A DNA stretch of 23,393 nt, taken from positions 1-23,393 of the IMG/VR virus record IMGVR_UViG_3300045051_000603, one strand, 5' to 3'. The notes beneath the pieces are model-generated. The model ran no database searches. It saw nothing but the letters and a program-made list of their open reading frames with translations, and was not told where the DNA came from. Positions within the stretch are counted from its first letter, which is position 1. Every line of letters starts with the position of its first letter. Position numbers and translations under genes: made by a program. Of the stretch, positions 6,484 to 23,029 are shown one piece after another. Source of the stretch: a virus.

Positions 6484-6953
6484 ACCCGACCCAAATCACC
6501 GCCGCGATTGCCCTCGCGTGCTTCCTCGGCGGCTTTCTGAGCGGGTACAAGGTCGAGGATTGGCGATGGACGGCCAAAGCCAACGCCGAGGCCTTGGCGG
6601 TAGCCCACGCCGCCATAGCACAACGCGATGAAGCCGTGGCCGCCTATACCCACCTCGCCGGGGAACTCTCGGCAAAGAACGACCAACACGCCGCCGAATT
6701 GAGGGCCGCCCAAAATGAAACGAACCTACTTCGTACTCGCGTTAACGCTGGCTCTCTCGGCTTGCGCGTCGCCGCGACTTGTCCCGACCTCTCCCAAATT
6801 GCCCCCGCCCCCGGTTCCCGCGTGGATACTGGAACCGGGGCCGAACTTGCGGGAACGGCTCAACAGGCTTATTTCGCCCTACGCGACGGAATCGACACCG
6901 TCGACGCCAAGCTCGCGGCCTGCCAAGACGAACTAAGGCTAAGAACCGAGTAG
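6480..6953 (+). CDS. Rz: Inner-membrane spanin (Rz-like)
   Basis: 157 residues from ATG 6480. One N-terminal membrane span (about 6-22, ITAAIALACFLGGFLSG) is followed by an Ala/Glu-rich, helical, probably coiled-coil periplasmic region (about 30-90). This is the standard i-spanin plan: it joins the outer-membrane partner to disrupt the outer membrane in the last step of lysis. Diagnostic support is the lipoprotein ORF 6715-6936 nested inside it in the +1 frame. The C-terminal end (to 6953) overlaps the 3' end of the convergent gene 6939-7097. Confidence 0.85.
   Translation: MNPTQITAAIALACFLGGFLSGYKVEDWRWTAKANAEALAVAHAAIAQRDEAVAAYTHLAGELSAKNDQHAAELRAAQNETNLLRTRVNAGSLGLRVAATCPDLSQIAPAPGSRVDTGTGAELAGTAQQAYFALRDGIDTVDAKLAACQDELRLRTE
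6715..6936 (+). CDS. Rz1: Outer-membrane spanin lipoprotein (Rz1-like), nested in Rz
   Basis: 73 residues, entirely inside the Rz gene in the +1 frame. MKRTYFVLALTLALSAC is a textbook lipoprotein signal with the lipobox cysteine at residue 17. The mature part begins with a proline-rich stretch (PKLPPPPVPAWILEPGP), as in Rz1 of lambda-like phages. It should be sorted to the outer membrane and bind the periplasmic Rz domain. The embedded architecture is the same as in lambda. Confidence 0.9.
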   Translation: MKRTYFVLALTLALSACASPRLVPTSPKLPPPPVPAWILEPGPNLRERLNRLISPYATESTPSTPSSRPAKTN

Positions 6954-7901: not shown

Positions 7902-7931
7902 ATTATGTATTACGAAATTACCCGTTGTCAA
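7902..7931 (-). promoter_or_regulatory. Sigma70-like early promoter for the small-ORF operon
   Basis: On the minus strand: TTGACA (7926-7931), 18-nt spacer, CATAAT (7902-7907), with the shared 16-mer TTTCGTAATACATAAT. The -10 ends exactly 32 nt before ATG 7869. The -35 contains the stop codon of the DNA polymerase gene. It is one of five related minus-strand promoters in the window. Confidence 0.8.
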
Positions 7932-10309
7932 CCCTTTCTGTATCTTTTTCCGCGCCACCCCCCGGCGGCCTTGATCGGCCAAGGTTGGCCCTTGTAGGTT
8001 GCCCATTCCGGCATTGTGCCCATGATGCGCTCGACTTCCTCAATGCTGCCGAAACCGTGGGGCGCGTCGACCACGTCTTCGTCGTATACGTGCAAGACGA
8101 CCGGATAGCCCGCCTTCTCAAGATTAACGATAGCGTGCCGTTGAATGTCCCGGGCGACCGCTTGAACGACGTTTTCGCAGAGCTTGCCCGAATACGTGGA
8201 CATCCGAATCCAGCCGATTGGCCCGCTCTTGGGGTTCGTGTTGTACCCCTCGTAACTGAGCGCCCATTGCCCGCCGAAATCGCGCGTATTGGCGTCGAGG
8301 CGGGGGAATCGGTAGGTAAGGGCGCGACCCGAGGGGAGCCAACAATAGAGCGCATCCTCGCCCGCGTGGCAATAGTAGGAGACCCCCGAATATGCCCCGT
8401 CAAGGCGCATAACGTGGAACCATTGGCCCGGGTAGAGAACAGCAGAAACCGCCGCCCCTTCTAGCCCGAACATTTCCGGCCGTCGTTCCCAACCGTCGCG
8501 GCGTTCCTGGCCGCCCCAGAAATAGACGATATTGGGGGAGGCTTCCCGCCAGCCGAGAATACCCTTCTTTATCTCGTCGTCGGTCATGAACTTATCCGCG
8601 CCGAAGTTCTTCCATGCCCCAATCCAACCCCCGAAACCTGAGGCTAGTTCTGCGACCTTCCCGAGCGTTTGGCGCAGGGGGTGATGGGGCTTTGTCTTGT
8701 CGGCGCGATGCTTCCACCATTCCGGCCGCTCGACATCCTCGTAGCCCGCATGGGCCATGATTTCGGCGAAGGGTATCCCGGTAATCTTGGATACGCTCAG
8801 TTCGTAGGCTTTGCCGTGAGTCTGGAACATTTCCACGCGCCAATCCTCGCCCGCTAGGCAAGCCGTTACGACGCCCTCAATAGACGAGAAGTCGGACGCG
8901 ATAAGGTCGCACCCTTCGGAGGCCACGAAAAGCCCGCGCAGGCACCCGGAAACGCACAACATGGCGTCTTTGTAGACCCGCTCGACCAATGAGAGGTCGC
9001 CGGTCTTGATAATAGCTAGAACGTCTTCCATTGCTTCCGGACCCCATTCCTCTTTTTTCTTGCCTGGAGCGAAGGGCAGGCCACACCACGCGCACGCGGG
9101 CAGATGCGCCCCCGTGTGGCGACCGCAAGAGCACTTCAGCACATCGGGGCCTGCTTTCGGGAGGTTGGTCGGCTGGGGGCCTTCGCCGGTTGGTCGCCCC
9201 GTTCGCGCCCCGTGGTAATTGAAAAGGTCGTGAAGCCGTCCCCAGGGGGATAGCTGATTGACCATTGCGAATACCTTTTTGACCGAAGCCGACCCAACCG
9301 CCTGTCGTATCTCAAGCGCCCGTTTTGCGAGAACTTGATGGGGGCCAAGACCGGCCAAAAGGGCGTCGATAGCGTCCTCGTCCATAGACCCCGGGCCGCT
9401 TCCGCAGATTACGCCCTGGCCCGCGAGCCACCCTTTTAGCCGCTCCAATTGACTAGCCTGCTCGACTTGGCCGCCAGTCAATTGATAAAGCTCGGCGTTG
9501 TATCGTTTTAGACACGCTTCGACAATGTGGGCGCAGGCCTTGAGGCTCTCCACGTCGACCGCGACCCCCCGGCGGTTAATTCGTTGGTCAGCAAGCCAAA
9601 ATTCCAATTCTTCGCCGGTCAAGTCGGGGCAACGACTCGACGCTTCCGCCTCGGTAACAATGTCCCGCTCGTTGTAGCGATAGAGGGCCGCCGCTTCCTC
9701 GGGGAAGTCTTGCGGAAGGTGCCGTAAGCGGGGGTCTTTCTTGGTCGGGTTCAAAGGGACCGAGAATTTATTAAGCAACGCCCCGCCCGCCGGGTCTTTT
9801 TGAAATTGCAGTTTCATGACTCGCCCCGCCATTTCTAGCGACGGGGGGTAACTGCTCGCCCGGGCCTTACCTTGCGCGCACCGGGTTTGCTCGATAGGCA
9901 ACGGGGGGAACCCGTATTTCGGCACGCAGACATAATTCCATATCCACCACTCGAACGCGCTATTCCACGCCTCGACAAGACCCCCCGCGAGTACCCAGGC
10001 GACTAGGTCGGCGGGCGGTTGGCCCCCTGGTAGCCAATGGCGGCGGCCCCGGCCGTCCTTGAGGTCGTAGTAAAGCGATAACACCTCGGTCGTGTGGTGC
10101 GTGGCATATACCGCCGCGCCCACGGCGGGGAGGCTTTTGTTCCCCTTGCCTTTTGGCGCACCCGGGGGGCCGTGCCATTTGCCCTTTACTGGGTCAAAGT
10201 AGCATCCCGCCTCGCTATAAGTTTCAAAGTCCATGTCGGGGACTACGGTTGCAACCCCCAGGCCCGCCGGGAGTTGCGTCCCCGCTCTAAGTTCGGCGGG
10301 GTGGGTCAT
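7928..10309 (-). CDS. Family A DNA polymerase with 3'-5' exonuclease domain
   Basis: 793 residues. The N-terminal proofreading domain has DFET (Asp27/Glu29, Exo I), WNSAFEWWIWN (Exo II) and YNERDIVTEAE (Exo III). The polymerase domain has motif A SDFSSIEGVV (about 472), motif B KVAELASGFGG (about 555) and motif C VLHVYDEDVVD (about 738). Motif C has Tyr where Pol I has the His of HDE. A four-cysteine group (CSC...CAWC, about 389-407) sits between the NLPK segment and motif A and looks like a zinc-binding insert. The start overlaps the preceding stop as ATGA. This is the likely replicative polymerase of the phage. Confidence 0.92.
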   Translation of the reverse strand: MTHPAELRAGTQLPAGLGVATVVPDMDFETYSEAGCYFDPVKGKWHGPPGAPKGKGNKSLPAVGAAVYATHHTTEVLSLYYDLKDGRGRRHWLPGGQPPADLVAWVLAGGLVEAWNSAFEWWIWNYVCVPKYGFPPLPIEQTRCAQGKARASSYPPSLEMAGRVMKLQFQKDPAGGALLNKFSVPLNPTKKDPRLRHLPQDFPEEAAALYRYNERDIVTEAEASSRCPDLTGEELEFWLADQRINRRGVAVDVESLKACAHIVEACLKRYNAELYQLTGGQVEQASQLERLKGWLAGQGVICGSGPGSMDEDAIDALLAGLGPHQVLAKRALEIRQAVGSASVKKVFAMVNQLSPWGRLHDLFNYHGARTGRPTGEGPQPTNLPKAGPDVLKCSCGRHTGAHLPACAWCGLPFAPGKKKEEWGPEAMEDVLAIIKTGDLSLVERVYKDAMLCVSGCLRGLFVASEGCDLIASDFSSIEGVVTACLAGEDWRVEMFQTHGKAYELSVSKITGIPFAEIMAHAGYEDVERPEWWKHRADKTKPHHPLRQTLGKVAELASGFGGWIGAWKNFGADKFMTDDEIKKGILGWREASPNIVYFWGGQERRDGWERRPEMFGLEGAAVSAVLYPGQWFHVMRLDGAYSGVSYYCHAGEDALYCWLPSGRALTYRFPRLDANTRDFGGQWALSYEGYNTNPKSGPIGWIRMSTYSGKLCENVVQAVARDIQRHAIVNLEKAGYPVVLHVYDEDVVDAPHGFGSIEEVERIMGTMPEWATYKGQPWPIKAAGGWRGKRYRKG

Positions 10310-10718: not shown

Positions 10719-10892
10719 TTACTCCTTGGCTTCGTCGATTCGGTCGCGTACCCATTGGTCGCCGCCGAGTTTGTCGAGTTTGGTGCGTTGCGTCCCGGTC
10801 AGCCGGATAGCCTTGACCTTCATCGGCTCGGCAGGGTACGACCGGGGCCGCCCCGCCCCCGTGGGGGCTTTCTTTGGAGCGGCCGGTTTCAT
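10719..10892 (-). CDS. Small basic protein, possible DNA-binding
   Basis: 57 residues from ATG 10892, overlapping the ssDNA-binding protein stop as TAATG. A basic Lys/Pro-rich N-terminus (MKPAAPKKAPTGAGRPRSYP) is followed by KVKAIRLTGTQRTKLDKLGG and WVRDRID. The pattern RLT..Q..KL..LGG..W.RD.ID resembles short phage proteins annotated as ribbon-helix-helix-like or regulators. DNA binding is plausible from the charge and pattern but not proven. Confidence 0.6.
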   Translation of the reverse strand: MKPAAPKKAPTGAGRPRSYPAEPMKVKAIRLTGTQRTKLDKLGGDQWVRDRIDEAKE

Positions 10893-11905
10893 TACAACAT
10901 CAGTCCGTTGGCGCGCAACTGCTCGTCGGTCCAATTGTTGGCGCGATATTGCTCATAGGTAAAGGCCCCGGCGGCGGCCGTCATTTGCGGGCCAACTGGG
11001 GCCGGAGCGGGAGCCATAGCCGGGGCCGGGGCTACCCCGCCGGGGCCAGCAAGAAACGCCGGATTCGGCGGCACGGCGACCGGGGCGGGGCTAGAAGGGA
11101 ATGTCGGAGCAACGGAAGCAACCGGGGAAGGCAAGGCCCCCGGCATAGCGGGGCCAGTCGAAACCGGGAGAGAGACCGGAACCGCAGGCGCAACCGGCAA
11201 AGGGGCCGCACCCGGCATTGCTCCCGGCATCATCGCGGGGGGCAGATTACCCGGCATTGCTCCCCCCGGCATGGAGGCCGGGAGAACCGGGGCTGCGACC
11301 CCCGGCGGCAGGACCGGGGCAGAACCGCCGAAGACTTGGGAGGCGTCGGGGCCACTTACGATAATGTCGGACGGTTGGCCCCCCGCGAGTTCAACCATGT
11401 TCAAATTGACATACAAGCCCGGTTTGCTAGCGTCGCCGTTGCCTTCGATAGTCCCGGCGACCCGCACGTAATACCCGCGCGGGATGGCTTTCGGGTCTTG
11501 AATCTGCTCGTGTGGCTGGTAGCGGCCCGCGTGGAAGCATTTCGGCGGGAAAGAGCTTTGGAACTTGAGAACCCAGCAACCAGCAAAGCCCGGCTTATTG
11601 GCGTTCGGCTTGCCGTCATCGTCGTAGCCGTCGCCGTCGGCGAGCTTCCAAGAGAATTTCGGGTTCGTGCACTGGCCTTGAGCGTTGAACAGGTGCGGGA
11701 ACGACGCGCGGGCAACCTCGACGAGCTTCGCATAGAGGGCGCTAAAGGCTTGGTCGGTCTTCGGGAAAGCCACGGCGATAAAATAACGCTGGGTCGGTTG
11801 GCCGCTCTTGGTTACAAGCGGTTGCCCTGCCTTGTTCTTGGTCTGGGCTTCGAAGGGGTCGCCCTGAACAAGGCGGCCGACGGGGGTAAGGAAGTCTGAT
11901 TTCAT
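10892..11905 (-). CDS. DUF2815-type single-stranded DNA-binding protein
   Basis: 337 residues from ATG 11905 (AAAGGAC upstream). The N-terminal 170 residues match DUF2815/Enc34-type phage ssDNA-binding proteins: ARASFPHLF, FHAGRYQPHEQIQDP, PRGYYVRVAGTIEGN, PGLYVNLNMVEL and VSGPDASQVFG. A Pro/Ala/Met-rich linker of about 110 residues follows. The protein ends in TYEQYRANNWTDEQLRANGLML, like the short tail motif of this family. It should coat ssDNA during replication or recombination. Its own promoter lies at 11938-11966, separating its expression from the nuclease gene upstream. Confidence 0.85.
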   Translation of the reverse strand: MKSDFLTPVGRLVQGDPFEAQTKNKAGQPLVTKSGQPTQRYFIAVAFPKTDQAFSALYAKLVEVARASFPHLFNAQGQCTNPKFSWKLADGDGYDDDGKPNANKPGFAGCWVLKFQSSFPPKCFHAGRYQPHEQIQDPKAIPRGYYVRVAGTIEGNGDASKPGLYVNLNMVELAGGQPSDIIVSGPDASQVFGGSAPVLPPGVAAPVLPASMPGGAMPGNLPPAMMPGAMPGAAPLPVAPAVPVSLPVSTGPAMPGALPSPVASVAPTFPSSPAPVAVPPNPAFLAGPGGVAPAPAMAPAPAPVGPQMTAAAGAFTYEQYRANNWTDEQLRANGLML

Positions 11906-11937
11906 GATATTTTGTCCTTTCGGGTTGTGGAACGGCA

Positions 11938-11966
11938 ATTATGTATTACGATTTAGAAAAGATCAA
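11938..11966 (-). promoter_or_regulatory. Promoter for the ssDNA-binding protein / polymerase operon
   Basis: Minus strand: TTGATC (11961-11966), 17-nt spacer, CATAAT (11938-11943), sharing CGTAATACATAAT with the other promoters. The -10 lies exactly 32 nt from ATG 11905, the same distance as at 7902, 20461 and 23062, although the leader sequence differs. It overlaps the 3' end of the DUF2800-like gene. Confidence 0.7.
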
Positions 11967-13102: not shown

Positions 13103-13903
13103 TTAGGCGAGGGCCGGGTAAGTTTGCTTGAGGGACGCCCAAACGAGGGGGACATAGGCGACGTTTTGCTGCAAGCCCACGATGGACGGGAGGCCATTGG
13201 CTACGCAGGCGTCGTTAAGCGCCGACGGCGGCAGGACACCGGAAGCCACGGCGGCGGAGATGCGCGGCATTAGCTGGACGAAATCGACCGGGTCAGCAAC
13301 CGGGGCAACGGGTTGTGACGCGGAAGTAATCTGCGAGCTTGCACCAACCCCGACGGCAGGGGGAGGGGTCGGGACGGTAGGCACAACCGGCGGGGCGGCC
13401 GGAACCGGGGCCAAAGGGGGGGCACTCGTGGCTGTCCGCAGTTCATCCTCTACCCGGGCGATTTGCTCGGGGGACTTGCCCCGGGCGTTCTTCCATTGGC
13501 CGTTAGCAAGCTTGGATTTCGTCGAACTGTGAATTCGGCCGTCCCAAGGCAGGCCCCGGCTATCCAATTCGACCGAACCGGCACCCGCGCCCGAAGATAC
13601 AGGCCCAGGCGTCGTCGTAGTCGGGGCAGTAGCTACCGGGGGCGGCGGGGCAGCGGTAGAGACCGTTGCATCGGGCAGGATGGAAGGGGCCAAAGGGACG
13701 GCCGGGGCACTCCCGAAGACGGCGGCGGCGTCGTTCGACTCGACGGCGGTCAGCGGTACGCGATTATCGGCGGCTTGCGCTTCCTTGAATTCTTCATAGA
13801 GAGGCTTCGCCGGGGCGGGCGACGCGCCCGAAAGAAGCAATTGTAGGAGGGGGACAGCGGCGGCGACTTCGGCTTGGTCGGCCAAGTTGATTTCGAGTTT
13901 CAT
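13103..13903 (-). CDS. Phage protein with WDGRIHSSTK motif and Pro-rich linkers
   Basis: 266 residues from ATG 13903 (GGAG 7 nt upstream); an ORF extension to 13972 would run through the promoter. Two Pro/Ala/Thr-rich linkers flank a compact segment at about 115-150: VELDSRGLPWDGRIHSS, then TKSKLANGQWKNARGKSPEQ. This motif recurs in phage proteins encoded near ssDNA-binding and DUF2800-type genes, with no assigned activity that I know of. A C-terminal helical domain (DFVQLMPRISAAV...PSIVGLQQ...) resembles small replication accessory modules. It heads the minus-strand replication gene set. Confidence 0.75.
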   Translation of the reverse strand: MKLEINLADQAEVAAAVPLLQLLLSGASPAPAKPLYEEFKEAQAADNRVPLTAVESNDAAAVFGSAPAVPLAPSILPDATVSTAAPPPPVATAPTTTTPGPVSSGAGAGSVELDSRGLPWDGRIHSSTKSKLANGQWKNARGKSPEQIARVEDELRTATSAPPLAPVPAAPPVVPTVPTPPPAVGVGASSQITSASQPVAPVADPVDFVQLMPRISAAVASGVLPPSALNDACVANGLPSIVGLQQNVAYVPLVWASLKQTYPALA

Positions 13904-13942: not shown

Positions 13943-13972
13943 AGGATAAACTCTACTTGTCTTTTCCGTCAA
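13943..13972 (-). promoter_or_regulatory. Promoter for the minus-strand replication genes
   Basis: Minus strand: TTGACG (13967-13972), 18-nt spacer, TATCCT (13943-13948). It precedes ATG 13903 and its GGAG site. It lacks the GTAATACATAAT box of the other minus-strand promoters and overlaps the inverted repeat at 13956-13973. Confidence 0.55.
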
Positions 13973-13973
13973 G
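13956..13973. promoter_or_regulatory. Inverted-repeat operator, copy 1 (divergent replication region)
   Basis: CTTGTC-N6-GTCAAG, an 18-bp inverted repeat with one mismatch, followed by TAATAC on the plus strand. It has the same architecture as the sites at 17275-17292 and 22709-22726. It covers the -35 of the minus-strand promoter and lies upstream of the plus-strand methyltransferase gene, so one bound regulator could control both directions. Confidence 0.6.
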
Positions 13974-13984
13974 TAATACGAAAT
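13957..13984 (+). promoter_or_regulatory. Weak candidate promoter for the plus-strand replication operon
   Basis: Plus strand: TTGTCT (13957-13962), 16-nt spacer, CGAAAT (13979-13984), in the context AAGTAATACGAAAT. It looks like a degenerate version of the AAGTAATACATAAT promoter at 22698. The match is poor, but the divergent gene needs a promoter and the position is right. Confidence 0.35.
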
Positions 13985-13993
13985 AAAAATTTT

Positions 13994-14665
13994 ATGAATG
14001 TTTTAATCGCTTGCGAATACTCGGGTCGAGTACGGGACGCTTTCAGAGAGAGAGGGCACAACGCCCTGTCGTGTGACCTTCGGCCAACGGAACGCCCCGG
14101 CCCCCACTATCAAGGGGACGTCCGGCATTTACTTTTGGAGGGGTGGGATTTGTTGATAGCGCACCCGGACTGCACCTTTTTATGTTCTTCTGGTATGCAC
14201 TGGACCCGCCGGGGCCTTCGAGACCCCCGATTGACCGAGGATGCCATTCGGTTTGTGCGAGACTTGGACGAAGCCCCTATTCCTCGGTCGGCTATTGAAA
14301 ATCCCGTTGGGGTTCTGTCGTCGGTTTTCCGCAAACCGGACCAGTATATCCAACCATACGAATTCGGGGACGACGCGAGCAAGCGTACTTGTCTATGGTT
14401 AAAGGGCCTCCCCCCGTTACGCCCGACCCTTTACGTTCCCCCTCGTTGGGTTTGCGGTTGCGGCCACACCTATCGAGAACCGGACGACCGGCACGGCTGC
14501 CCGAATTGTGGCGGGGAGAGAGGCCCCGCCCGTCCCCGATGGGCTAACCAAACCGATAGCGGACAAAATCGCCTCGGGCCTTCTGAAACGCGGGGCAAAG
14601 ACCGGGCCTTAACCTATCAAGGGTGGGCCGACGCTATGGCGGAACAATGGGGGGCTTTGACGTGA
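13994..14665 (+). CDS. DNA cytosine methyltransferase-like protein with zinc ribbon
   Basis: 223 residues from ATG 13994. MNVLIACEYSGRVRDAF corresponds to the SAM-binding start of phage Dcm-like methylases. HPDCTFLCSSG stands where C5-methylases have the catalytic PPC loop, here PDC, and IENPVG matches the ENV/ENP motif. YEFGDDASKRTCLWLKGLPPL is typical of this phage subfamily. An insert CGCGHTYREP...CPNCGG near 155-177 looks like a zinc ribbon. No ribosome binding site is seen in the A/T-rich leader. Likely roles are host-restriction evasion or marking phage DNA; catalytic activity is not certain because of the divergent loop. Confidence 0.7.
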   Translation: MNVLIACEYSGRVRDAFRERGHNALSCDLRPTERPGPHYQGDVRHLLLEGWDLLIAHPDCTFLCSSGMHWTRRGLRDPRLTEDAIRFVRDLDEAPIPRSAIENPVGVLSSVFRKPDQYIQPYEFGDDASKRTCLWLKGLPPLRPTLYVPPRWVCGCGHTYREPDDRHGCPNCGGERGPARPRWANQTDSGQNRLGPSETRGKDRALTYQGWADAMAEQWGALT

Positions 14666-16386
14666 GTCGCCTTAGACCTTTCCAACAAACCATTAAGGCC
14701 GCCGTTTTCCAACATTGGAACGAGGGGCGGCGAAACGTTCTCGTCAAGTCGCCCACGGGGTCGGGCAAAACCGTCATTACCGCCGACATTGTTCGCGCGG
14801 TCGATTGCGCGGTAGCCTCCATTGCCCACCGTTCCGAGTTGGTAACGCAAAAATCCGTCGCCCTGGCTCGCGAGGGGATACCGCATAGAGTCATCGGCCC
14901 CGACTCGTTGCGGAAGGATTGCGTAACCCTGCACATGGAAGAATTCGGCAGGTCGTTTTTCAACCCAGGCGCACGGGTCGGGGTTTGTTCCGTGGATACC
15001 CTCGTTGGCCGCAAAAACGACCCCTGGCTTCATCAGGTCGGGCTATGGGATATGGACGAAGCCCACCACGTTCTCAAGGCGAACAAATGGGGGGAAGCGT
15101 GCGCGATGTTCCCCAATGCTTACGGGTTGGGGGTTACGGCAACGCCCGCCCGAGCCGACGGGCGCGGACTGGGGGCGCACGCTGACGGAGTATTTGAAGC
15201 CATCGTTCAAGGCCCCGAGCTACGCGAGCTTATCGACGCGGGGTATTTGACGGATTACCGGGTTTTCGCCCCGCCCTCCGATGTCGATTACTCCGAGGTC
15301 ACTATTACCGCCTCGGGGGACTATAGCCCCGCCAAGCTACGGGCGGCGGTCCATGCCTCGGATAAAATCGTCGGCGACGTGGTACGGCATTACCTCAGGA
15401 TAGCGGCCGGGAAACTCGGCGTAACCTTTGCCGTCGATGTTGAGAGCGCGAAAGAAATCGCCCAGGCCTACCGCGACGCGGGCGTACCTGCCGAGGTTGT
15501 CAGCGCCAAGACCCCTTCGCTTCTTCGCACGCACATACTCCGGCAGTTCAAGGCGCGCAAGATTCTACAATTGGTCAACGTCGATTTGTTCGGCGAAGGC
15601 TTCGACCTCCCGGCGATTGAGGTCGTTTCTATGGTGCGAAAAACGGAGTCGTGGCCGCTGTTCGTGCAGCAATTTGGCCGCGCCCTCCGCCTCATGATCG
15701 CCCCCGAACTTTCCATCGCGTGGGGGTCAATGACCGACGAGGAACGCCGCGCGCATATCGCCGCGAGCGGCAAGCCTTATGCCTTGATTATCGACCACGT
15801 CGGTAACGTCATACGTCACGGGCTACCGGACGCCCCCCGCCGTGACTCCCTGGACCGCCGCGAACGGCGAAGCTCGGGGCCTTCCGACGCTATCCCGATA
15901 CGGGTTTGCGCGAACGACAACGCCGACGGCATGGGCACACCTTGCGCCTCGGCTTACCCCCGCCTCCTGAAGACTTGCCCGTATTGCGGGTTTTACCCCG
16001 AGCCTCCCGAGCGCAGCGCACCCGAGTTTGTCGACGGCGACCTCCACGAGCTTACCCCCGAGGCGTTGGCCGCGTTACGGGGCAAGGTTGCCAACATAGA
16101 CGGCGCGCCCCGTATCCCCCAAAGCCTCGACCCGATGGCCGCGCGGGGGCTTATGAACCGGCACCACGAGCGGCAGGTAGCCCAACACGAGCTACGGCAG
16201 AAAATCGCCCTTTGGGCGGGTTGGCAAAGGCACCTCGGACGCTCAGACTCCGAGAGTTACCGGGCCTTTTATTTTGCGTTCGGCCTGGACGTATTAAGCG
16301 CGCAATCCCTCGGCAGGCCCGAAGCCTTGGCCCTCGCCGAGAATATCCAAACCGTACTAACTAGACATGGAGTGGTAGCGGCATGA
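14647..16386 (+). CDS. Superfamily 2 DNA helicase (DEAD/DEAH-like)
   Basis: 579 residues from ATG 14647. A GTG at 14662, overlapping the methylase stop as GTGA, is an equally possible start (MSRLRPFQQT). Motifs: RPFQQ (Q-like), SPTGSGKT Walker A (about 35-42), IAHRSEL (Ia), DMDEAHH Walker B (about 135), TATPAR (III), LVNVDLFGEGFDLP (V) and QQFGRALR (VI, about 341-348). A CPYCGFYPEPPE element after the core may bind zinc. Phage helicases of this type are thought to act in replication initiation, recombination or fork restart. It is coupled to its neighbours by overlaps. Confidence 0.9.
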   Translation: MGGFDVSRLRPFQQTIKAAVFQHWNEGRRNVLVKSPTGSGKTVITADIVRAVDCAVASIAHRSELVTQKSVALAREGIPHRVIGPDSLRKDCVTLHMEEFGRSFFNPGARVGVCSVDTLVGRKNDPWLHQVGLWDMDEAHHVLKANKWGEACAMFPNAYGLGVTATPARADGRGLGAHADGVFEAIVQGPELRELIDAGYLTDYRVFAPPSDVDYSEVTITASGDYSPAKLRAAVHASDKIVGDVVRHYLRIAAGKLGVTFAVDVESAKEIAQAYRDAGVPAEVVSAKTPSLLRTHILRQFKARKILQLVNVDLFGEGFDLPAIEVVSMVRKTESWPLFVQQFGRALRLMIAPELSIAWGSMTDEERRAHIAASGKPYALIIDHVGNVIRHGLPDAPRRDSLDRRERRSSGPSDAIPIRVCANDNADGMGTPCASAYPRLLKTCPYCGFYPEPPERSAPEFVDGDLHELTPEALAALRGKVANIDGAPRIPQSLDPMAARGLMNRHHERQVAQHELRQKIALWAGWQRHLGRSDSESYRAFYFAFGLDVLSAQSLGRPEALALAENIQTVLTRHGVVAA

Positions 16387-16637
16387 AAAAACTTTTAATC
16401 ATTGGGGCAACGGCAAGCGTTGCTTTTGTCCGGGGACTTACTCGCGAGCTTGAGCAACTTGGAAAAGTCGAGGTCGTATTCGCCGAAGAAAGGGCGAACC
16501 CTCATTACCCCGAGGAACGCCGTTTTACTACCCTCGCCCCCCGGGAGCCGATGCCGACTTTCTACCAATCGCCCCGCAAGAGCAAGGGGGAGAAGAAGCG
16601 CGAGGCAAGCGCCCGTCGTCGGAAGGGTTGGGCATGA
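16383..16637 (+). CDS. Small basic protein, unknown
   Basis: 84 residues, ATGA overlap with the helicase stop. The N-terminus MKKLLIIGATASVAFVRGL looks like a beta strand plus glycine-containing turn, as in small Rossmann-like folds or a membrane-inserting segment. The C-terminal third is strongly basic (PRKSKGEKKREASARRRKG), suggesting nucleic acid binding. Its place between helicase and nuclease suggests a replication accessory. No known family recognised. Confidence 0.6.
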   Translation: MKKLLIIGATASVAFVRGLTRELEQLGKVEVVFAEERANPHYPEERRFTTLAPREPMPTFYQSPRKSKGEKKREASARRRKGWA

Positions 16638-17122
16638 AATCCCTACACGATTGGTTCGAGCGTAACCAAGGGCGGCCCTTGACCTTTGAGATATTCCGCG
16701 ACCTGCAATTGACCCTTGGCACCTATACCCCGACGCTACCGGCCGAAGCCCCAGGCATGGGCAAAACGGAAGCGTGGGCGCAAAGTGTCGTAAGAATCGC
16801 CGCGAGTCGGGAGGGCATCAAGACCTTTCGGAATAACGTCGGCGTGTTGCAGGATAAGACCGGCCGCCCGGTTCGCTATGGGCTTGCGAACGATTCGCCG
16901 AAAATGAACGAGGTCATAAAGAGCGGGGACTTGATCGGAATCAAACCCGTGATTATCCAACCGTGGCACATCGGCCACACCTTCGGCCAATTCTGGAGCC
17001 GCGAGGTCAAGGCCCCAGGTTGGCAATATACCGGCCAAGGGCGCGAAGTCGCTCAATTGAATTGGGCCAACCTGATAAACTCATGCGGCGGCGATGCTGC
17101 CTTTACGACGGGGGAACTATGA
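16634..17122 (+). CDS. VRR-NUC-like PD-(D/E)XK endonuclease
   Basis: 162 residues from ATG 16634 (ATGA overlap with the previous stop). The C-terminal 100 residues carry FRNNVGVLQDKTGRPVRYGL, SGDLIGI (catalytic Asp), REVKAPGW (the E-x-K pair) and GREVAQLNWANLINSCGG (a helix with conserved Gln). This is the layout of phage VRR-NUC domains, related to Holliday-junction resolvase-like nucleases. The N-terminal 50 residues are unassigned. Coupling with a helicase suggests processing of branched replication or recombination intermediates. Confidence 0.82.
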   Translation: MKSLHDWFERNQGRPLTFEIFRDLQLTLGTYTPTLPAEAPGMGKTEAWAQSVVRIAASREGIKTFRNNVGVLQDKTGRPVRYGLANDSPKMNEVIKSGDLIGIKPVIIQPWHIGHTFGQFWSREVKAPGWQYTGQGREVAQLNWANLINSCGGDAAFTTGEL

Positions 17123-17295
17123 ACGTTAGACCAGACGACCGCAGGGTTTGGCGGCTAGGGGCGTCCGCCTTGTTTCCGGAGGATTGCCGAAAGGTTTTCC
17201 CGGTCGGCCCCCTCCTTCGGACGGCAGTCGCGCAAGCGGATTACCTGCTTATGAGGCTTATGCGCGGCCCTCGTCTTGACAAACCTGTCAAGTAA
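17119..17295 (+). CDS. Small protein, unknown
   Basis: 58 residues from ATG 17119, overlapping the nuclease stop as ATGA, with GGGGGAA upstream. It is rich in Arg, with a helical C-terminal half (GPLLRTAVAQADYLLMRLM). Its last codons (LDKPVK) are written in the -35 and inverted repeat of the downstream promoter, so coding and regulatory DNA overlap. Function unknown. Confidence 0.6.
   Translation: MNVRPDDRRVWRLGASALFPEDCRKVFPVGPLLRTAVAQADYLLMRLMRGPRLDKPVK
17275..17292. promoter_or_regulatory. Inverted-repeat operator, copy 2 (ahead of TetR-like gene)
   Basis: CTTGAC-N6-GTCAAG, a perfect 6-bp inverted repeat; counting one more base on each arm gives CTTGACA/TGTCAAG with a 4-bp centre. It is followed by TAA as at 13956-13973. 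It lies across the -35 of the promoter at 17276-17305, the classic place for repressor autoregulation. Confidence 0.7.
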
Positions 17296-17305
17296 CCCCT
17301 ATTCT
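17276..17305 (+). promoter_or_regulatory. Promoter for TetR-like regulator and primase-helicase
   Basis: Plus strand: TTGACA (17276-17281), 18-nt spacer, TATTCT (17300-17305), followed by ATG 17315 after only 9 nt. If the transcript begins about 7 nt after the -10, the regulator mRNA would be almost leaderless. It drives the regulator and probably the primase-helicase. Confidence 0.65.
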
Positions 17306-17314
17306 GACGGAACT

Positions 17315-17635
17315 ATGAAACCACAAATCAAGCTAGAAGCCCGGGAACGTGTCGCGCAAATCTTGAAAGCCGCGCTCGAATTGTGCAGTCAAGAGGCAAC
17401 GACCTACAACCGAATTACTCGCGATGAAATCGCCAAGAAGGCCGGGATACCGTCGTCGCTCGTGGCGTATCATTGCGGAACGATGGCGGACCTCCGACGC
17501 GACATCATGCGGGAGGCCGTGCGGGTCGAGAACTTGGCCGTTATTGCTCAAGGTCTCGCCGCCCGCGACCGACACGCCCTGAAAGCCCCGGAAGAAGTAC
17601 GCCGCCGCGCCCTCGAATCCCTCGCTCTGCTCTAA
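17315..17635 (+). CDS. Short TetR-like transcriptional regulator
   Basis: 106 residues from ATG 17315. The helix-turn-helix region ITRDEIAKKAGIPSSLVAYH, then CGTMADLRRDIMREAV, matches the N-terminal DNA-binding part of TetR proteins (IA..AG...S..YH.G....L). Usual family members have about 190-210 residues, so most of the ligand-binding and dimerisation domain is missing. This could be a minimal constitutive repressor, or it may need a partner. It sits directly behind an inverted repeat overlapping its own -35, which supports autoregulation. The ligand, if any, is unknown. Confidence 0.7.
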   Translation: MKPQIKLEARERVAQILKAALELCSQEATTYNRITRDEIAKKAGIPSSLVAYHCGTMADLRRDIMREAVRVENLAVIAQGLAARDRHALKAPEEVRRRALESLALL

Positions 17636-17644
17636 GGGGAACCC

Positions 17645-20005
17645 GTGCAAACCCTACCGCCCGCCCTCGCGGCAATGGCCGCTTATCGTCAATTTCTATG
17701 TTACGCCCTGGTCCCCTCTCAACGGCTCCCGGGTAAGATGGATAAAATTCCCGTTTCTCCCCATACCGGCGAAGTCTGCACGGCGCACGACCCGCAGCAC
17801 TGGACGACCGCCGACCATGCCTGTCAAGTCGCGACTGCGTGGGGGCCGGGGTATGGGGTTGCCTTCTCGTTCCAAGAGTCCGACCCCTTCTTTTTCGTCG
17901 ATATTGATAACGCTTACGACGGAGTCAATTGGTCGCCCGTTGCCCAACATATCGCATCCATGTTCCCGGGGGCGGCAATGGAGCTATCCCAATCGGGGAA
18001 AGGGATGCACATTTTCGGCACCGGCCGCGCCCCGGCGCACGGTAAGAAAAACGCCGCCCTCGGCTTGGAGTTCTACACCGAATTGAGGTTTGTCGCTTTG
18101 ACCGGGGTCGGGGCGATGGGCAACGCGGCGACCGACCACACGGCTGCCCTTCACGCCTTGACGGCTCAATACTTCCCGGCGGGAGCGAGTGCTAACGGGG
18201 ATTTCTCTCTCTCCGACGGTCCCGTGCCCGAATGGCGGGGGCCGACCGACGACGCCGATTTGATTCGCCGCGCCCTCATGAGCAAGAGCGCGGCGAGTGT
18301 TTTCGGAGGCCGGGCGTCGTTCGCCGACCTTTGGGAATGTAACGCGGACGCCCTCGCCAAAGCCTACCCCGACGGGGGCGGCAGGCCCTACGACGCGAGC
18401 CAAGCCGACGCGGCCTTGATTGCCCATTTGGCTTTTTGGACAGGCAAGGACGGCGAGCGGATTAAACGACTTATGCGGCAATCGGGCCTTGTTCGCGAGA
18501 AATGGGACCGGCAGGGCGACGACTACTTGGCCCGCTCAATTGCCGAAGTTCTCGCACGTGGGGGCGACGTGTTGCAGGACAAGCCCGTAGAACCCGCCGC
18601 CGTGCCCCAGGCGGCCGAAAGTGCCCCAGGCCAGCAAGACATTACCGGTTCGACCTACCTCAACGCCGAGGCGCAGAAAACACTGTTCGCGGGGTGTATC
18701 TACATACAAGACCGACACCGGGTACTCGTCCCGGGCGGGTTGCTGCTCAAGCCCGACCAGTTCCGCGCAGCGTTCGGCGGCTATTGTTTCATCATGGACG
18801 CGAACAACGAGCGGACCACGCGCAACGCTTGGGAGGCCTTTACCGAGTCGCAGATTTTACGCGCCCCCCGTGCCGACACGATTTGTTTTAAGCCTTCCCT
18901 GCCCCCGGCGGCGGTCGTCAATGACGCGGGGAAGCTCCGCGCCAATACCTACTGGCCCGCCGACGTTAAGCGCGCCCCGGGCGACGTGGGGCCGTTCCTG
19001 GCCCATGTGGCGAAGGTACTCCCCAACGAGCGGGACCGGGCTATTTTGTTAGCCTACATGGCCGCAATCGTGCAGCATAAGGGCGTTAAATTCGCGTGGT
19101 GCCCGGTCCTCCAAGGGGCCGAAGGCAACGGGAAAACGTTTTTCTCGGCGTGCGTGGCGATGGCGGTCGGGCAGCACTACACACATTGGCCGCTCGCCGA
19201 CGACATCGCGTCCCAGTTTAACGGATGGATTGCTGATAAAATCTTTGTCGCCCTGGAGGAATTACAAGGCCAAGAGCATAGCGCCGACGAGGTTGTGCGC
19301 CGCTTAATGGTCTTGATTACGGGCGGCTTCGGGGTGCAGATTCAGCAAAAAGGCGTCGATCAGTTCAGCATGGAGATTTGCGCGAATTTCATTGCCACGA
19401 CTAACCATAAAAACGCGGTTCGTAAGACCCCCGACACCGCCCGCCGCTTTGCCGTTTTCTACACCGCCCAACAATCCTACGCCGATATCCTCCGCGACGG
19501 CATGGGGGGTGATTACTTCCCGACCCTTTACGCGTGGGCGCGTGGGGGCGGCTTCGCGGCGATTACCGACTTCCTCTATAACTACCCGATACCGGACGAG
19601 TTCAACCCGACCAAGGGTTGCCACCGTGCCCCCCACACCTCCACGACTGACGCGGCTATGCAGGAGAGCCAAGGCGGCGTCGAGCAGCAGATAGCCGAAG
19701 CGATAGCCCAGGACACACCGGGGTTTATGGGCGGTTGGGTCTCGTCGGTCATGCTGGACCGTCTTGTTACAGAGACCCTCAAAATGGGCGGGCGCTTGAG
19801 CTTGTCGAAGCGGCGGGAATTGCTGAAGGGCATGGGCTACGTTCTGCATCCGGGGCTTCGCGACGGACGCGTCAACAATCCGGTCCAACCCGACGGCCGC
19901 AAGCCTCAATTGTTCATCTTGGCAAATCACCCCCACCGCTATCTAACCGACGCGGCGGAGATTGCCCGGGAGTATTCAGCGGCGCAGCAGGTCAAACCGC
20001 AATGA
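17645..20005 (+). CDS. Primase-helicase, NrS-1 polymerase-like (AEP primase plus SF3-type helicase)
   Basis: 786 residues from GTG 17645 (AAGGGGAA upstream), 9 bp after the regulator. The N-terminal domain carries FFFVDIDN (Asp86/Asp88, the catalytic DxD of archaeo-eukaryotic primases) and SQSGKGMHIFG (the conserved strand with His). A PriCT-like helical region follows (about 210-310). The C-terminal half has Walker A GAEGNGKTFF (about 490), VALEELQG (Walker B-like) and FIATTNHKNAV (sensor-like), as in DUF5906/SF3-type helicases of phage NrS-1-like primase-polymerases. It should unwind and prime, possibly also polymerise, at the phage origin. It is the last gene before a terminator. Confidence 0.87.
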   Translation: MQTLPPALAAMAAYRQFLCYALVPSQRLPGKMDKIPVSPHTGEVCTAHDPQHWTTADHACQVATAWGPGYGVAFSFQESDPFFFVDIDNAYDGVNWSPVAQHIASMFPGAAMELSQSGKGMHIFGTGRAPAHGKKNAALGLEFYTELRFVALTGVGAMGNAATDHTAALHALTAQYFPAGASANGDFSLSDGPVPEWRGPTDDADLIRRALMSKSAASVFGGRASFADLWECNADALAKAYPDGGGRPYDASQADAALIAHLAFWTGKDGERIKRLMRQSGLVREKWDRQGDDYLARSIAEVLARGGDVLQDKPVEPAAVPQAAESAPGQQDITGSTYLNAEAQKTLFAGCIYIQDRHRVLVPGGLLLKPDQFRAAFGGYCFIMDANNERTTRNAWEAFTESQILRAPRADTICFKPSLPPAAVVNDAGKLRANTYWPADVKRAPGDVGPFLAHVAKVLPNERDRAILLAYMAAIVQHKGVKFAWCPVLQGAEGNGKTFFSACVAMAVGQHYTHWPLADDIASQFNGWIADKIFVALEELQGQEHSADEVVRRLMVLITGGFGVQIQQKGVDQFSMEICANFIATTNHKNAVRKTPDTARRFAVFYTAQQSYADILRDGMGGDYFPTLYAWARGGGFAAITDFLYNYPIPDEFNPTKGCHRAPHTSTTDAAMQESQGGVEQQIAEAIAQDTPGFMGGWVSSVMLDRLVTETLKMGGRLSLSKRRELLKGMGYVLHPGLRDGRVNNPVQPDGRKPQLFILANHPHRYLTDAAEIAREYSAAQQVKPQ

Positions 20006-20006
20006 G

Positions 20007-20031
20007 AAAAGGCCCCGAGGGGCCTTTAGTT
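20007..20031. terminator. Bidirectional intrinsic terminator
   Basis: AAAGGCCCC (20008-20016) pairs with GGGGCCTTT (20019-20027). A T-containing run follows on the plus strand (AGTTTATT) and TTTTC follows on the minus strand. It lies between two convergent gene sets ending at 20005 and 20031, so it can end both. Confidence 0.8.
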
Positions 20032-20201
20032 TATTCGGGCTTCGCCGCTTTCGCTAGCTCGTTGTATTTGTCGGCGGCTTCGGCCATGCGGGCTAGTTCC
20101 TTTCGGGCGATTTTGCGCCCCTCGGCGGTTCCGTCTTCGACGGCCGCTAAGAGGATCGGGAGCACCTCTTGCCAAGATGGCGCTAGGTCAATGGTTCTCA
20201 T
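20031..20201 (-). CDS. Small phage protein, unknown
   Basis: 56 residues, ATGA overlap with the upstream gene's stop. It starts MRTIDLAPSWQEVLPILLAA, then EDGTAEGRKIARKELARMAE and AADKYNE. This pattern (W..VLP.L......G...A..EL.RMA..AD) resembles a recurrent short phage protein family of unknown function. No cysteines or membrane spans are seen; it is probably an all-helical soluble protein. Confidence 0.65.
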   Translation of the reverse strand: MRTIDLAPSWQEVLPILLAAVEDGTAEGRKIARKELARMAEAADKYNELAKAAKPE

Positions 20202-20428
20202 TCGGCGGCCTCGTTCAACGCTTCTTCGATTTCATCAAGGGCGGTCAAGGCATCTTCGAGGCGGCTTGCGGCTTGCTCGGCCTTTTCGCCGCGCTCGGAC
20301 TGCTGCAAGTTCTCGGGCATGTTGTCAAAGTAGTCTTGCTCCTCGTTTTGCAATTCCTCAACGCGGGAGCGCAGGTCGGCCAGTTCATTAAGGATTGCGC
20401 TAATTTGCTTACGGCGTTGGTTGTTCAT
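20198..20428 (-). CDS. Small coiled-coil protein, unknown
   Basis: 76 residues, highly charged and helical: QISAILNELADLRSRVEELQ, then EEQDYFDNMPENLQQSERGE and EQAASRLEDALTALDEIEEA. A helix, a break at NMPENLQ, and a second helix suggest a helical hairpin. The pattern DYFDNMPENLQ...S..GE.AE.A is one I associate with short phage proteins of unknown role. The leader and ribosome binding site (GGAGCAAATC before ATG) are shared with 7869 and 23029. Confidence 0.7.
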   Translation of the reverse strand: MNNQRRKQISAILNELADLRSRVEELQNEEQDYFDNMPENLQQSERGEKAEQAASRLEDALTALDEIEEALNEAAE

Positions 20429-20460
20429 GATTTGCTCCCGTTTGGTTAGTTGGTAGGCGT

Positions 20461-20489
20461 ATTATGTATTACGAAATTACGCTTGTCAA
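20461..20489 (-). promoter_or_regulatory. Sigma70-like early promoter
   Basis: Minus strand: TTGACA (20484-20489), 17-nt spacer, CATAAT (20461-20466), with the full TTTCGTAATACATAAT box. The -10 is 32 nt from ATG 20428. It lies just downstream of the minus-strand terminator at 20497-20516, so it starts a fresh transcript. Confidence 0.8.
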
Positions 20490-20496
20490 CAACAAC

Positions 20497-20516
20497 AAAA
20501 AGCCCCCGAAGGGGCT
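20497..20516 (-). terminator. Intrinsic terminator for the ParB-like operon
   Basis: Minus strand: AGCCCC-TTCG-GGGGCT followed by TTTTTGTTG. A 6-bp stem with a TTCG tetraloop and T-run is a canonical factor-independent terminator. It ends transcription of the genes at 20515-22676 right before the next promoter. Confidence 0.85.
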
Positions 20517-20616
20517 AAGAGAGTAGGAACTTGCAACAAGCGGCGGTCGTTGCCAGGGCGGCCACGAGTTGCGCGAGCTTTAGGCAGGTTTCGAGGTACA
20601 AGGCGCTTTCCTCCAT
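20515..20616 (-). CDS. 33-residue hydrophobic peptide, tentative
   Basis: ATG 20616 with GGGGTGT upstream opens a 33-residue frame (MEESALYLETCLKLAQLVAA, then LATTAACCKFLLS). Residues 10-32 could form one membrane helix with paired cysteines. The stop codon lies in the first arm of the terminator hairpin. It overlaps the end of the preceding gene by 37 bp in another frame. The size makes it uncertain. Confidence 0.35.
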   Translation of the reverse strand: MEESALYLETCLKLAQLVAALATTAACCKFLLS

Positions 20617-20768
20617 TTACACCCCGTGCACCCGGGGTCGGTCTCGGTTTTGTCGTGCTTGCATTCGGTCGAGTTGTTAAAGCGCCAAGTTTGGCCGCCG
20701 TACCACGGCGACCCCCGGAGCCTAGCCCCTTCGACCGGCCGGGGGCGATTATGGCAACCGTACGGCAT
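20580..20768 (-). CDS. Small cysteine-rich, possibly zinc-binding protein
   Basis: 62 residues, starting 3 bp after the upstream stop. The C-terminal part has NNSTECKHDKTETDPGCTGC followed by KWR and a further Cys (C-x9-C-x2-C plus the last Cys), a pattern seen in short phage proteins with a likely zinc knuckle. The N-terminus is basic and Arg-rich (NRPRPVEGARLRG). Function unknown; nucleic acid or protein binding is plausible. Confidence 0.55.
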   Translation of the reverse strand: MPYGCHNRPRPVEGARLRGSPWYGGQTWRFNNSTECKHDKTETDPGCTGCKWRKAPCTSKPA

Positions 20769-20771
20769 GAC

Positions 20772-21209
20772 CTAGCCCCCCTTCACCTTCTCAGCCACGT
20801 AGGCATCGAGCGCGGAGGTTGTGGGATGGAGGGAGAGGGCGGAGGTAGCCATTCGGCGCAGGATGCAATCATTAGCGATTTCGTTGTAAGGGTCTGTCAT
20901 TTCCCGCAATATGTCGTCCTTCTGCTGAATCACCAGATCGCGTGCGGCGAGTTGCTTTTCGAAGTGAGAAGCTACAGCCTTAGCATCTGCGTCGGACAGT
21001 TCGTTGTGTTCCTCGACAGTCACGCTGGACGATCTCCATTTAGAAATCTCAGCATTCGCAGCATCGAGTTCCCGCTGCATCGCTTCGAGTGCGTCGGCTG
21101 CATCATGGCAGTATTTCCCGGTCATAAGCTTCCAACCTGACCCGTCAGGATCAGGCGTACATGTGACTTTTGGAACGCTGCGCAGTCGCTTAATCAGTTC
21201 TGTGGTCAT
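20772..21209 (-). CDS. Phage accessory protein with coiled-coil region, low GC
   Basis: 145 residues, ATGA overlap with the previous stop. It starts MTTELIKRLRSVP, with YCHDAADALEAMQRELDAAN leading into a helical, probably coiled-coil stretch (about 36-100), in the style of Ead/Ea22-like accessory proteins. Base composition is clearly lower (about 48-52% GC in lines I counted) than its neighbours (about 65-75%), and codons ending in A or T are frequent. This suggests recent transfer into the operon. Function unknown. Confidence 0.65.
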   Translation of the reverse strand: MTTELIKRLRSVPKVTCTPDPDGSGWKLMTGKYCHDAADALEAMQRELDAANAEISKWRSSSVTVEEHNELSDADAKAVASHFEKQLAARDLVIQQKDDILREMTDPYNEIANDCILRRMATSALSLHPTTSALDAYVAEKVKGG

Positions 21210-21721
21210 TTTGTGCCCCCTACCCGGTCAAGGCGCTCAATCTCCGCCAGGATAAGCGCCCCGGCTTTGACGAGGTTACGGCGGGGGGTCGAGGGCTTCC
21301 ACCATTCTTGACCCCACGGCCAAACCTCCCCGGGCCACCCCCCTTGCCACACGAACCCGCCCGCGTCGGCCGCATAACACGCCGCCGCGTCGGCTAGCTC
21401 GCCGCCCGGCCAGACGTCGGCGTCCCGCTCGGGGGTAAAGCCTTCGCGGTCAATTTGGCGGCGTCGTTCCTGTAGCACGTCGGAAATAGCCCGGTCTCTT
21501 GCGGTTGGCTCCCATTCCTCGTCGGCCCCCGTTAGCTCTCGATCTATTTCCCGGAAAGCGAGGTAGGAGACCCAGGCGACGGCGGCGAAGGCAAAGGCGA
21601 GAATTACCCAGTCCGAGGCCCCGCCGGTAAGCGTGGAGAGCGCCGCGCGGGCCAAGGCTAAACCGACCGTAACGGAAAGCACGGCGAGCGCGGCAAGGAG
21701 GGCTTTGATTGCGTTTTTCAT
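21206..21721 (-). CDS. Two-span membrane protein fused to a phage 'WPW...WWKP' domain
   Basis: 171 residues, GGAG 10 nt upstream. Two membrane segments lie at about 5-26 (KALLAALAVLSVTVGLALAR) and 37-57 (DWVILAFAFAAVAWVSYLAF). The cytoplasmic domain has RDRAISDVLQERRRQIDREG, then WPGGELADAAACYA and WPWGQEWWKPSTPRRNLVKA, ending ILAEIERLDR. This soluble domain occurs alone in many phages and prophages, with no activity I can name with confidence; its helical shape recalls MazG-like proteins. The membrane fusion is unusual to my knowledge. Confidence 0.7.
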   Translation of the reverse strand: MKNAIKALLAALAVLSVTVGLALARAALSTLTGGASDWVILAFAFAAVAWVSYLAFREIDRELTGADEEWEPTARDRAISDVLQERRRQIDREGFTPERDADVWPGGELADAAACYAADAGGFVWQGGWPGEVWPWGQEWWKPSTPRRNLVKAGALILAEIERLDRVGGTK

Positions 21722-21725
21722 CGTC

Positions 21726-22676
21726 TTATTTCTCCGGGTTAATGATGTCGTGGGCGGCCTCGATCAACTGTACGAAGTCGCGGGATTGGTAGGTTACGAG
21801 GGCGGAACGGGCGGCCAGGGTGCGAACGAACTCGATACACTTTACCCCCAGGTCATCGGCGGCTTGGTAGGTCTCGACCGTCTTGGCAAGCTCCACGGCC
21901 CGGGCGAGGTCTTGGCGGGCGGGGGCGTCGTGGTTGAGCTTGGCAACCGACCGCGCAAGAGATACAAGCGTTGCTACGGCTTCGTCAGTTACCGCCGAGG
22001 CGCGAACCTTGGGGGCCTCGATATGCTTGGCCGTGGCTTTGGTCTTGCCCGCCTTCTCGGCTTCCTGCACCCCGGCGGCCAGGGTTGCGGCGGCCTTCTC
22101 CGCCCCGACCTTGCGGACGGTCTTGAGTGCCGTGTGGGAGGCTACCTTACCCGCCGCGACCATTTGTTGCACGGCGGCGGGGGCTTCGGCCAAGGCTAGG
22201 CCGTTCTCGACCGTGGAGCGGTGCAAGCCGGTACGCGCGGCAATCTCGGCGACCGAGTGCCCCATATTGACGAGGCGCAGGAAGCCCCGCCCCTGCTCCA
22301 AGGGCGTGAAGTTCTTGCCCTGATCGGACCCGAGCATATGAAACACCGCGTCGCTGTCGTTGCCGCGCAACTGGCGGGCCTCCAAGAGGTATTCGACCCC
22401 CTCGGACCACAAGCGGCGGGCGGCGCGCGTGCGGCAATGGCCGTCGCGGGCAATGATGCGCTCCCCGACTACCGACACGTCGATAGGCGGAAGGTACGCC
22501 CCGCCCTTCATGGCGACGTAGAGCCGATCAATGTGGGCGTCAAGCTCCGGGCCTTCCTCGCGGAGATTAAAGCCGGGTTCGAACTCGACCACGTCGGGGC
22601 GTACCTTGAAGTAAGTCGCCTTCTGGATACCGTCGGCTTTGCCTTCGGCGAGGGATTTAAGGGAAGCCATATTCAT
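21726..22676 (-). CDS. ParB-like DNA-binding protein
   Basis: 316 residues. ATG 22676 lies 3 nt after GGAGAAA; ATG 22670 (9 nt spacing) is an alternative start. Residues about 62-85 (LPPIDVSVVGERIIARDGHC, then RTRAA) contain the ParB N-terminal box, with GHCRTR where GERRxR is usual. SVAEIAARTGLHRSTVENGL (141-160) is a ParB/KorB-type helix-turn-helix. The C-terminus is helical. No ParA partner is present in the window. It could act in partition, as a CTP-switch DNA clamp, or as a regulator. Its promoter carries the shared inverted-repeat operator. Confidence 0.83.
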   Translation of the reverse strand: MNMASLKSLAEGKADGIQKATYFKVRPDVVEFEPGFNLREEGPELDAHIDRLYVAMKGGAYLPPIDVSVVGERIIARDGHCRTRAARRLWSEGVEYLLEARQLRGNDSDAVFHMLGSDQGKNFTPLEQGRGFLRLVNMGHSVAEIAARTGLHRSTVENGLALAEAPAAVQQMVAAGKVASHTALKTVRKVGAEKAAATLAAGVQEAEKAGKTKATAKHIEAPKVRASAVTDEAVATLVSLARSVAKLNHDAPARQDLARAVELAKTVETYQAADDLGVKCIEFVRTLAARSALVTYQSRDFVQLIEAAHDIINPEK

Positions 22677-22697
22677 TTTCTCCTGTAAGAAAAGCGG

Positions 22698-22725
22698 ATT
22701 ATGTATTACTTGGCGGGCTTGTCAA
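22698..22725 (-). promoter_or_regulatory. Promoter for the parB-like operon
   Basis: Minus strand: TTGACA (22720-22725), 16-nt spacer, CATAAT (22698-22703), with AAGTAATACATAAT. The spacing to ATG 22676 is 21 nt rather than 32. It overlaps both the stop of the upstream gene and the inverted repeat at 22709-22726. Confidence 0.7.
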
Positions 22726-23029
22726 GTTTGCACGAGCCAGCAATCCGAACGTCGCGCGGCAGATCAAAGCCAGGGCGGGAGTAGGACAGTTCCGGCAAGG
22801 GGCCAAGCTCGCCAATAGCCCGGCGGGCTTGCTCAACCAACGAGGCCAGCATACCGGGGCCGATTTCCCCGGCGTCGGGATTGAGGCGGGCGACCCGCTC
22901 AACCAGTGCGAACAATTCGAGAATGTCGGCTTTGGCGTCTTCAAAGGCAAATTGAATAGCCGGGAGGCTTTGGCGATAGGCCATTGCCTCGGGATGGCAT
23001 CCGGTCCATTGGTCTATGGTGCGTTTCAT
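22706..23029 (-). CDS. Phage protein, unknown
   Basis: 107 residues from ATG 23029, chosen for its shared leader and GGAGCAAATC site; an in-frame codon at 23062 lies in the promoter. It starts MKRTIDQWTGCHPEAMAYRQ, with a helical middle (FEDAKADILELFALVERVAR) and LEQARRAIGEL-like pattern (here VEQARRAIGEL). The C-terminus ends KLDKPAK inside the downstream promoter. It is probably a soluble helical protein; family not recognised. Confidence 0.65.
   Translation of the reverse strand: MKRTIDQWTGCHPEAMAYRQSLPAIQFAFEDAKADILELFALVERVARLNPDAGEIGPGMLASLVEQARRAIGELGPLPELSYSRPGFDLPRDVRIAGSCKLDKPAK
22709..22726. promoter_or_regulatory. Inverted-repeat operator, copy 3 (parB-like promoter)
   Basis: Read on the minus strand: CTTGAC-N6-GCCAAG followed by TAATAC, an 18-bp inverted repeat with one mismatch. 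It has the same length, spacing and flanking TAA as the sites at 13956 and 17275. It spans the -35 and spacer of the promoter at 22698-22725. Confidence 0.6.

Follow-up and report, generated by a model that had tools for sequence, protein, structure and literature searches.

Introduction

Genes resembling tetR have been noted in the dwarf myoviruses phiPLPE, CP-T1, and 138 (Comeau et al. 2012; PMC3391216), and the passages of that paper that treat these genes name no operator or regulon. A passage of the same paper describes the Vibrio phage CP-T1 as temperate in behavior yet devoid of the genes for any of the three known mechanisms of lysogeny. Two papers on related phages make no reference to TetR, and our literature search, carried out outside most subscription journals, found no described operator or regulon of phage TetR-like proteins.

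Here, we analyze a 23,393-base viral record from IMG/VR (IMGVR_UViG_3300045051_000603, positions 1–23,393), the whole of which is referred to as the window. It encodes a TetR-like protein of 106 residues, whose profile is matched by CP-T1 gp14 and by one phiPLPE protein, and CP-T1 shares with the window phage both its genome plan and the DNA site described below. Because the record is probably a fragment of a genome, its count of sites is a minimum.

Results

A first-pass annotation of this DNA had proposed a regulon marked by three copies of an 18-bp inverted repeat, CTTGWC-N6-GYCAAG. The three copies are present, each free of mismatches on at least one strand. Candidate operator site A (13956–13973, CTTGTCTTTTCCGTCAAG) lies in the divergent replication region, site B (17275–17292, CTTGACAAACCTGTCAAG) is a perfect dyad 5′ of the tetR-like gene, and site C (22709–22726, minus strand, CTTGACAAGCCCGCCAAG) lies 5′ of a parB-like gene. 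With up to one mismatch, the window contains a single extra match, at 21307–21324 within a coding ORF, and the frequent occurrence in coding DNA that would have spoken against the proposal is not seen within the window. A mononucleotide-shuffled window yields 0.15 matches to CTTGWC-N6-GWCAAG at the same tolerance. At up to two mismatches, there are 15 matches against 4.3 expected, a number reached by none of 100 dinucleotide shuffles. The arm rule is better written as TTGWC-N6-GWCAA, a core of 16 bp, than in its original form; in close relatives the arm proximal to the −10 box is usually GACAAG, such that the fifth base is often asymmetric.

The annotation had placed each site on a promoter, and all three indeed lie over both the −35 box and the spacer of σ70-type promoters; at site A, no recognizable −10 box is found in the sequence for the rightward direction. 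The leftward promoter at this site (13944–13972, minus strand) has a −35 box TTGACG (13967–13972), a 17-bp spacer, and a −10 box TTATCC (13944–13949). Site B covers the −35 box (TTGACA, 17276–17281) of the tetR-like gene's own promoter (17276–17305, plus strand), which continues with an 18-bp spacer and a −10 box TATTCT (17300–17305). The promoter at site C (22698–22725, minus strand) combines TTGACA (22720–22725), a 16-bp spacer, and CATAAT (22698–22703). Half of each site is a consensus −35 box, so part of the arm conservation reflects promoter selection, a caveat that the annotation had raised and that stands. Alignment on the core of the sites upstream of tetR-like genes yields the consensus TTGACga.ccCGTCAAta; the best −10 box most often follows a spacer of 17–18 bp. 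In the window, 9 bp separate the −10 box of the tetR-like gene's promoter from the ATG (17300–17317), and the tetR-like transcript would consequently be leaderless or nearly so.

A second class of promoters is also found in these phages, with a TTGACA-like −35 box and a conserved spacer around TTTCGTAWTACATAAT and without the second operator arm. Members lie on the minus strand of the window at 7917, 20476, and 23077 and in related loci at L006 13600 and 11455; L007 9073, 8246, 6334, and 5763; L005 7127 and 4448; and L030 684; in some of the L007 copies the −35 box reads TTGCAA. These promoters should escape the repressor proposed here and may be controlled by another regulator.

Site A separates two arms of genes. 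The leftward arm begins with the gene at 13103–13903 (minus strand), served by the site A promoter, and continues with more DNA-metabolism genes, including that of a DNA polymerase (7928–10309). The rightward arm comprises a methyltransferase-like gene, a ResIII/DEAD-type helicase gene (14623–16386, plus strand), an endonuclease-like gene, the tetR-like gene (phrog_8723; 17315–17635, plus strand), whose product is the proposed binder and autoregulator, and a DNA primase/helicase gene (phrog_1829; 17645–20005, plus strand). A gap of 10 bp lies between the tetR-like gene and the start of the primase gene, in what we propose is a common operon, so autoregulation at site B would take in the primase. 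The ParB-like protein gene (phrog_1033, HTH_ParB; 21726–22676, minus strand) is the proposed target of site C. The earlier suggestion that one TetR-like protein controls both replication arms and the ParB-like operon is supported, with the caveat that control of the helicase side from site A would lack a recognizable −10 box; the rightward replication arm would still be reached through site B by virtue of the adjoining primase gene.

Conservation in related phages, which had been proposed as a check, gives strong support, with core and spacing kept at homologous promoters and in distant phages bearing the tetR-like gene. Three IMG/VR contigs of ∼41–43 kb encode TetR-like proteins 72–80% identical to that of the window and carry the site at homologous places. 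Counterparts of site A lie 5′ of the homologue of gene 13103–13903 (L006:5704, L007:506, and L027:1855), those of site B lie 5′ of the tetR-like gene (L006:7962 and L007:2757; degenerate in one contig), and those of site C (L006:13023, L007:7717, and L005:5952) lie 5′ of a small gene. Close relatives have one added site, 5′ of the homologue of gene 10892–11938, that is missing from the window. At several of these sites the promoter is nearly invariant, e.g. CTTGACATTTTCGACAAGTAATACATAATT.

A homologue of the TetR-like protein is encoded in 88 phage records. The core recurs genome-wide in the distant dwarf myoviruses MEW1, MSW-3, PEAT2, AAM22, and CP-T1, whose TetR-like proteins are merely 30–40% identical to that of the window. 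Complete genomes contain 7 copies of TTGWC-N6-GWCAA in Klebsiella phage MEW1, 5 in KsaM-C1, 5 in Edwardsiella phage MSW-3, at least 9 in Pectobacterium phage PEAT2, 3 in Pantoea phage AAM22, and 6 in CP-T1 (at 6537, 9812, 12722, 23361, 30663, and 34100). An unbiased scan for gapped palindromes ranks the operator motif first in MSW-3 and MEW1 and second in CP-T1, narrowly after GCCCC-N5-GGGGC, which is taken to be terminator stems. Intergenic DNA makes up 8.6% of MEW1 and 5.8% of CP-T1, and it holds 11 of the 15 TGAC-N6-GTCA sites in the former and 6 of 11 sites in the latter; in MEW1 a gene start mostly lies ∼45–75 bp away. Among the targets in the distant phages are tetR-like genes, the divergent replication promoters, and small genes on the reverse strand that sit between late genes. 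No excess of sites is found in phiPLPE. After the operator motif, the gapped palindrome with the strongest over-representation in MEW1 is GTATA-N7-TATAC (3766, 38001, 38019, and 38196), which forms a cluster at ∼38.0–38.2 kb, 5′ of the terminase genes.

The TetR-like protein matches the phrog_8723 profile over residues 5–105 (E = 5.1e-26) and Pfam TetR_N with an E-value of 0.0032, which falls short of the curated cut-off. The profile of its family matches solved TetR-family HTHs with E-values down to 5.9e-11, and the fold predicted by AlphaFold2 from 45 homologues (pLDDT 94.5) aligns to TetR-family chains with Z-scores up to 10.9, LuxR/SmcR being among the neighbors. Helices are predicted at residues 9–25, 36–43, 47–54, 57–70, 74–82, 86–89, and 93–105. 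After the HTH and connecting helix come three short helices in place of a large C-terminal ligand-binding/dimerization domain, and for this reason we file the protein as a TetR-type HTH mini-protein rather than as a canonical TetR. As in the TetR family, a palindrome lies over the gene's own promoter (site B here), and, as in the Cro-like class, candidate operators lie on its own and on other replication or early promoters. The homologue in Acinetobacter phage Scuro (L015 6776–7276) has 166 residues, with an extra N-terminal stretch preceding the TetR-like part. A search of bacterial genomes with the narrow patterns of alignment A2 found no relative, which is weak evidence that the family is restricted to phages.

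Given that half of each arm is a −35 consensus, three TTGACA promoters might have gained a second arm by chance without there being any operator. The spacing data lead us to reject such a coincidence as extremely improbable. The tetR-like gene is present in 42 of the 45 loci with a gene for a relative of the window primase, mostly directly 5′ of the primase gene (the search used alignment A2, alignment A1 being too diverse). In these 42 loci, TTGWC-Nk-GWCAA is matched 44 times at k = 6 and a mean of 2.5 times at the other spacings from 0 to 20, with the caveat that some loci are related and not all are independent events (for k = 0 to 20: 1, 8, 1, 5, 4, 3, 44, 0, 4, 2, 0, 0, 4, 3, 0, 5, 1, 0, 5, 2, 2). 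In a set of 71 tetR-like genes, freed of redundancy on the basis of their upstream sequences, 31 carry TGWC-N6-GWCA in the 200 bp preceding the gene, against 0–4 with the same arms at any other spacing. The TTGACA-type promoter class of the same phages, moreover, has no second arm. For the other 40 genes no core site is detectable in those 200 bp; some of them carry the core with one mismatch or belong to an operon with its start elsewhere, and some have another repeat.

As to which protein reads the site, the assignment to the TetR-like regulator survives a co-occurrence test that discriminates it from the ParB-like protein, which might otherwise use the sites as an autoregulator or as scattered parS-like sites, given that one of the three in the window lies 5′ of its gene. 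The phrog_8723 family is found in all 16 TetR-positive records tested. By contrast, phrog_1033 is absent from G003, MEW1, KsaM-C1, MSW-3, AAM22, PEAT2, and Scuro, the seven site-bearing phages tested other than the window phage and two relatives of it that carry the ParB-like gene, and all seven have the tetR-like gene; the co-occurrence with a ParB-like protein expected of a ParB/parS partition system is not seen in them. Of four phages that are ParB-positive and TetR-negative, three are devoid of the site, and we reject the ParB-like protein as the binder, a reading that these distributions make very improbable. The fourth, MW202512, has two matches, which could speak for binding by a conserved regulator that the hosts of these phages have in common, as could the placement of the sites within host-type promoters in phages of several Gammaproteobacteria. 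Yet the site tracks the phage tetR-like gene, with none in M29, ECO1230-10, and PPpW-3, which lack the gene, and it is typical of that gene's own promoter; we consider a host regulator quite unlikely. It is also unlikely that the TetR-like protein binds the site to activate transcription or recruit polymerase as a middle-gene activator. DNA-metabolism targets could be middle genes, and some TetR-family proteins both activate and repress, LuxR/SmcR being among the fold neighbors, but a site over a near-consensus −35 box and most of the spacer has a polymerase-blocking geometry, and the promoters look strong unaided.

The recognition helix itself varies with the presence of the site. Threonine at residue 46 occurs in none of the 31 proteins with a site and in 13 of the 40 without, and glutamine at residue 51 in none of the 31 and in 10 of the 40; in the 71 loci, a recognition helix beginning T-P-[PQ]-A is never paired with the site. 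Some T-P-[PQ]-A proteins have another inverted repeat around the −10 box of their own promoter (L010 32219–32238, L011 36958–36977, and upstream of the tetR-like gene in L047, L050, L051, and L053), examples being AAGGGCG-GATACT-CGCCCTT and AAATAAGGG-N9-CCCTTATTT. In L010 and L011 the repeat has no further copy elsewhere, and a genome-wide scan of T-P-[PQ]-A phages for gapped palindromes found no common operator. The pattern agrees with a co-change of reading helix and operator, as far as can be judged from sequences whose phylogeny confounds the comparison.

Discussion

Together, the site, its spacing and overlap with promoters, its conservation and co-occurrence with the gene, and the predicted fold of the protein make it probable (about 0.8) that the repeat serves as the operator for the TetR-like protein that the phage itself encodes (phrog_8723), an autoregulated Cro-like repressor of early genes. 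From this sequence-based evidence, we infer binding, dimerization, repression rather than activation, and timing as follows. A pair of protein molecules, in the simplest case a dimer, would recognize TTGAC and GTCAA from the same face of the DNA; the centers of the half-sites are 11 bp, or one turn, apart. Early in infection, the promoters would fire. As the protein builds up, its own tetR–primase operon, the leftward DNA-metabolism operon, and the parB-like operon would be switched off. With the −35 box serving as the left half-site and the spacer occupied by the right one, the bound protein would exclude host σ70 RNA polymerase. Such a regulator would provide Cro-like early-gene shut-off and autoregulation with the TetR reading head kept and the ligand-binding domain almost all lost.

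It is also conceivable, if doubtful, that repression by the mini-TetR underlies a non-classical dormant state (pseudolysogenic or episomal) and immunity to superinfection, in which case silencing of the early promoters would let these integrase-free dwarf myoviruses persist. CP-T1 is recorded as coming from an induced lysogen and carries the regulator and six exact sites, and the window phage would add a ParB-like gene to the same regulon. The unexplained temperate behavior of CP-T1 thereby becomes directly testable.

The Cro-like early repressor that we favor would give a likely function, a DNA site, and a list of targets to phrog_8723, a family labeled "unknown function" with relatives in many Klebsiella phages of the Jedunavirus group, which are studied for therapy. 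It also offers a simple model for the timing of early transcription in small virulent myoviruses, and a TetR-type repressor of this size with a defined core site would be a compact tool for gene control.

Two known systems come close to the proposed regulator. Like the canonical TetR/AcrR autorepressors (TetR, QacR, and FadR and Vibrio SmcR/LuxR/HapR), it has, by profile and fold, the same HTH and adjoining helices, and a palindromic site lies over its own gene's promoter. Canonical members have ∼190–210 residues, however, and the near absence of a ligand-binding domain here suggests that there is probably no small-molecule inducer; unlike theirs, its targets are phage operons. As proposed, it resembles lambdoid Cro in being small, DNA-binding, and autoregulated and in having dyad operators at divergent early promoters, but its HTH is of the TetR type, its operators are single and scattered on −35 boxes whereas that of Cro is tripartite, and no CI-like partner is seen within the window. 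The control logic is of a known kind; what would be new is a TetR-type mini-protein with single operators placed genome-wide in the −35 boxes of virulent phages.
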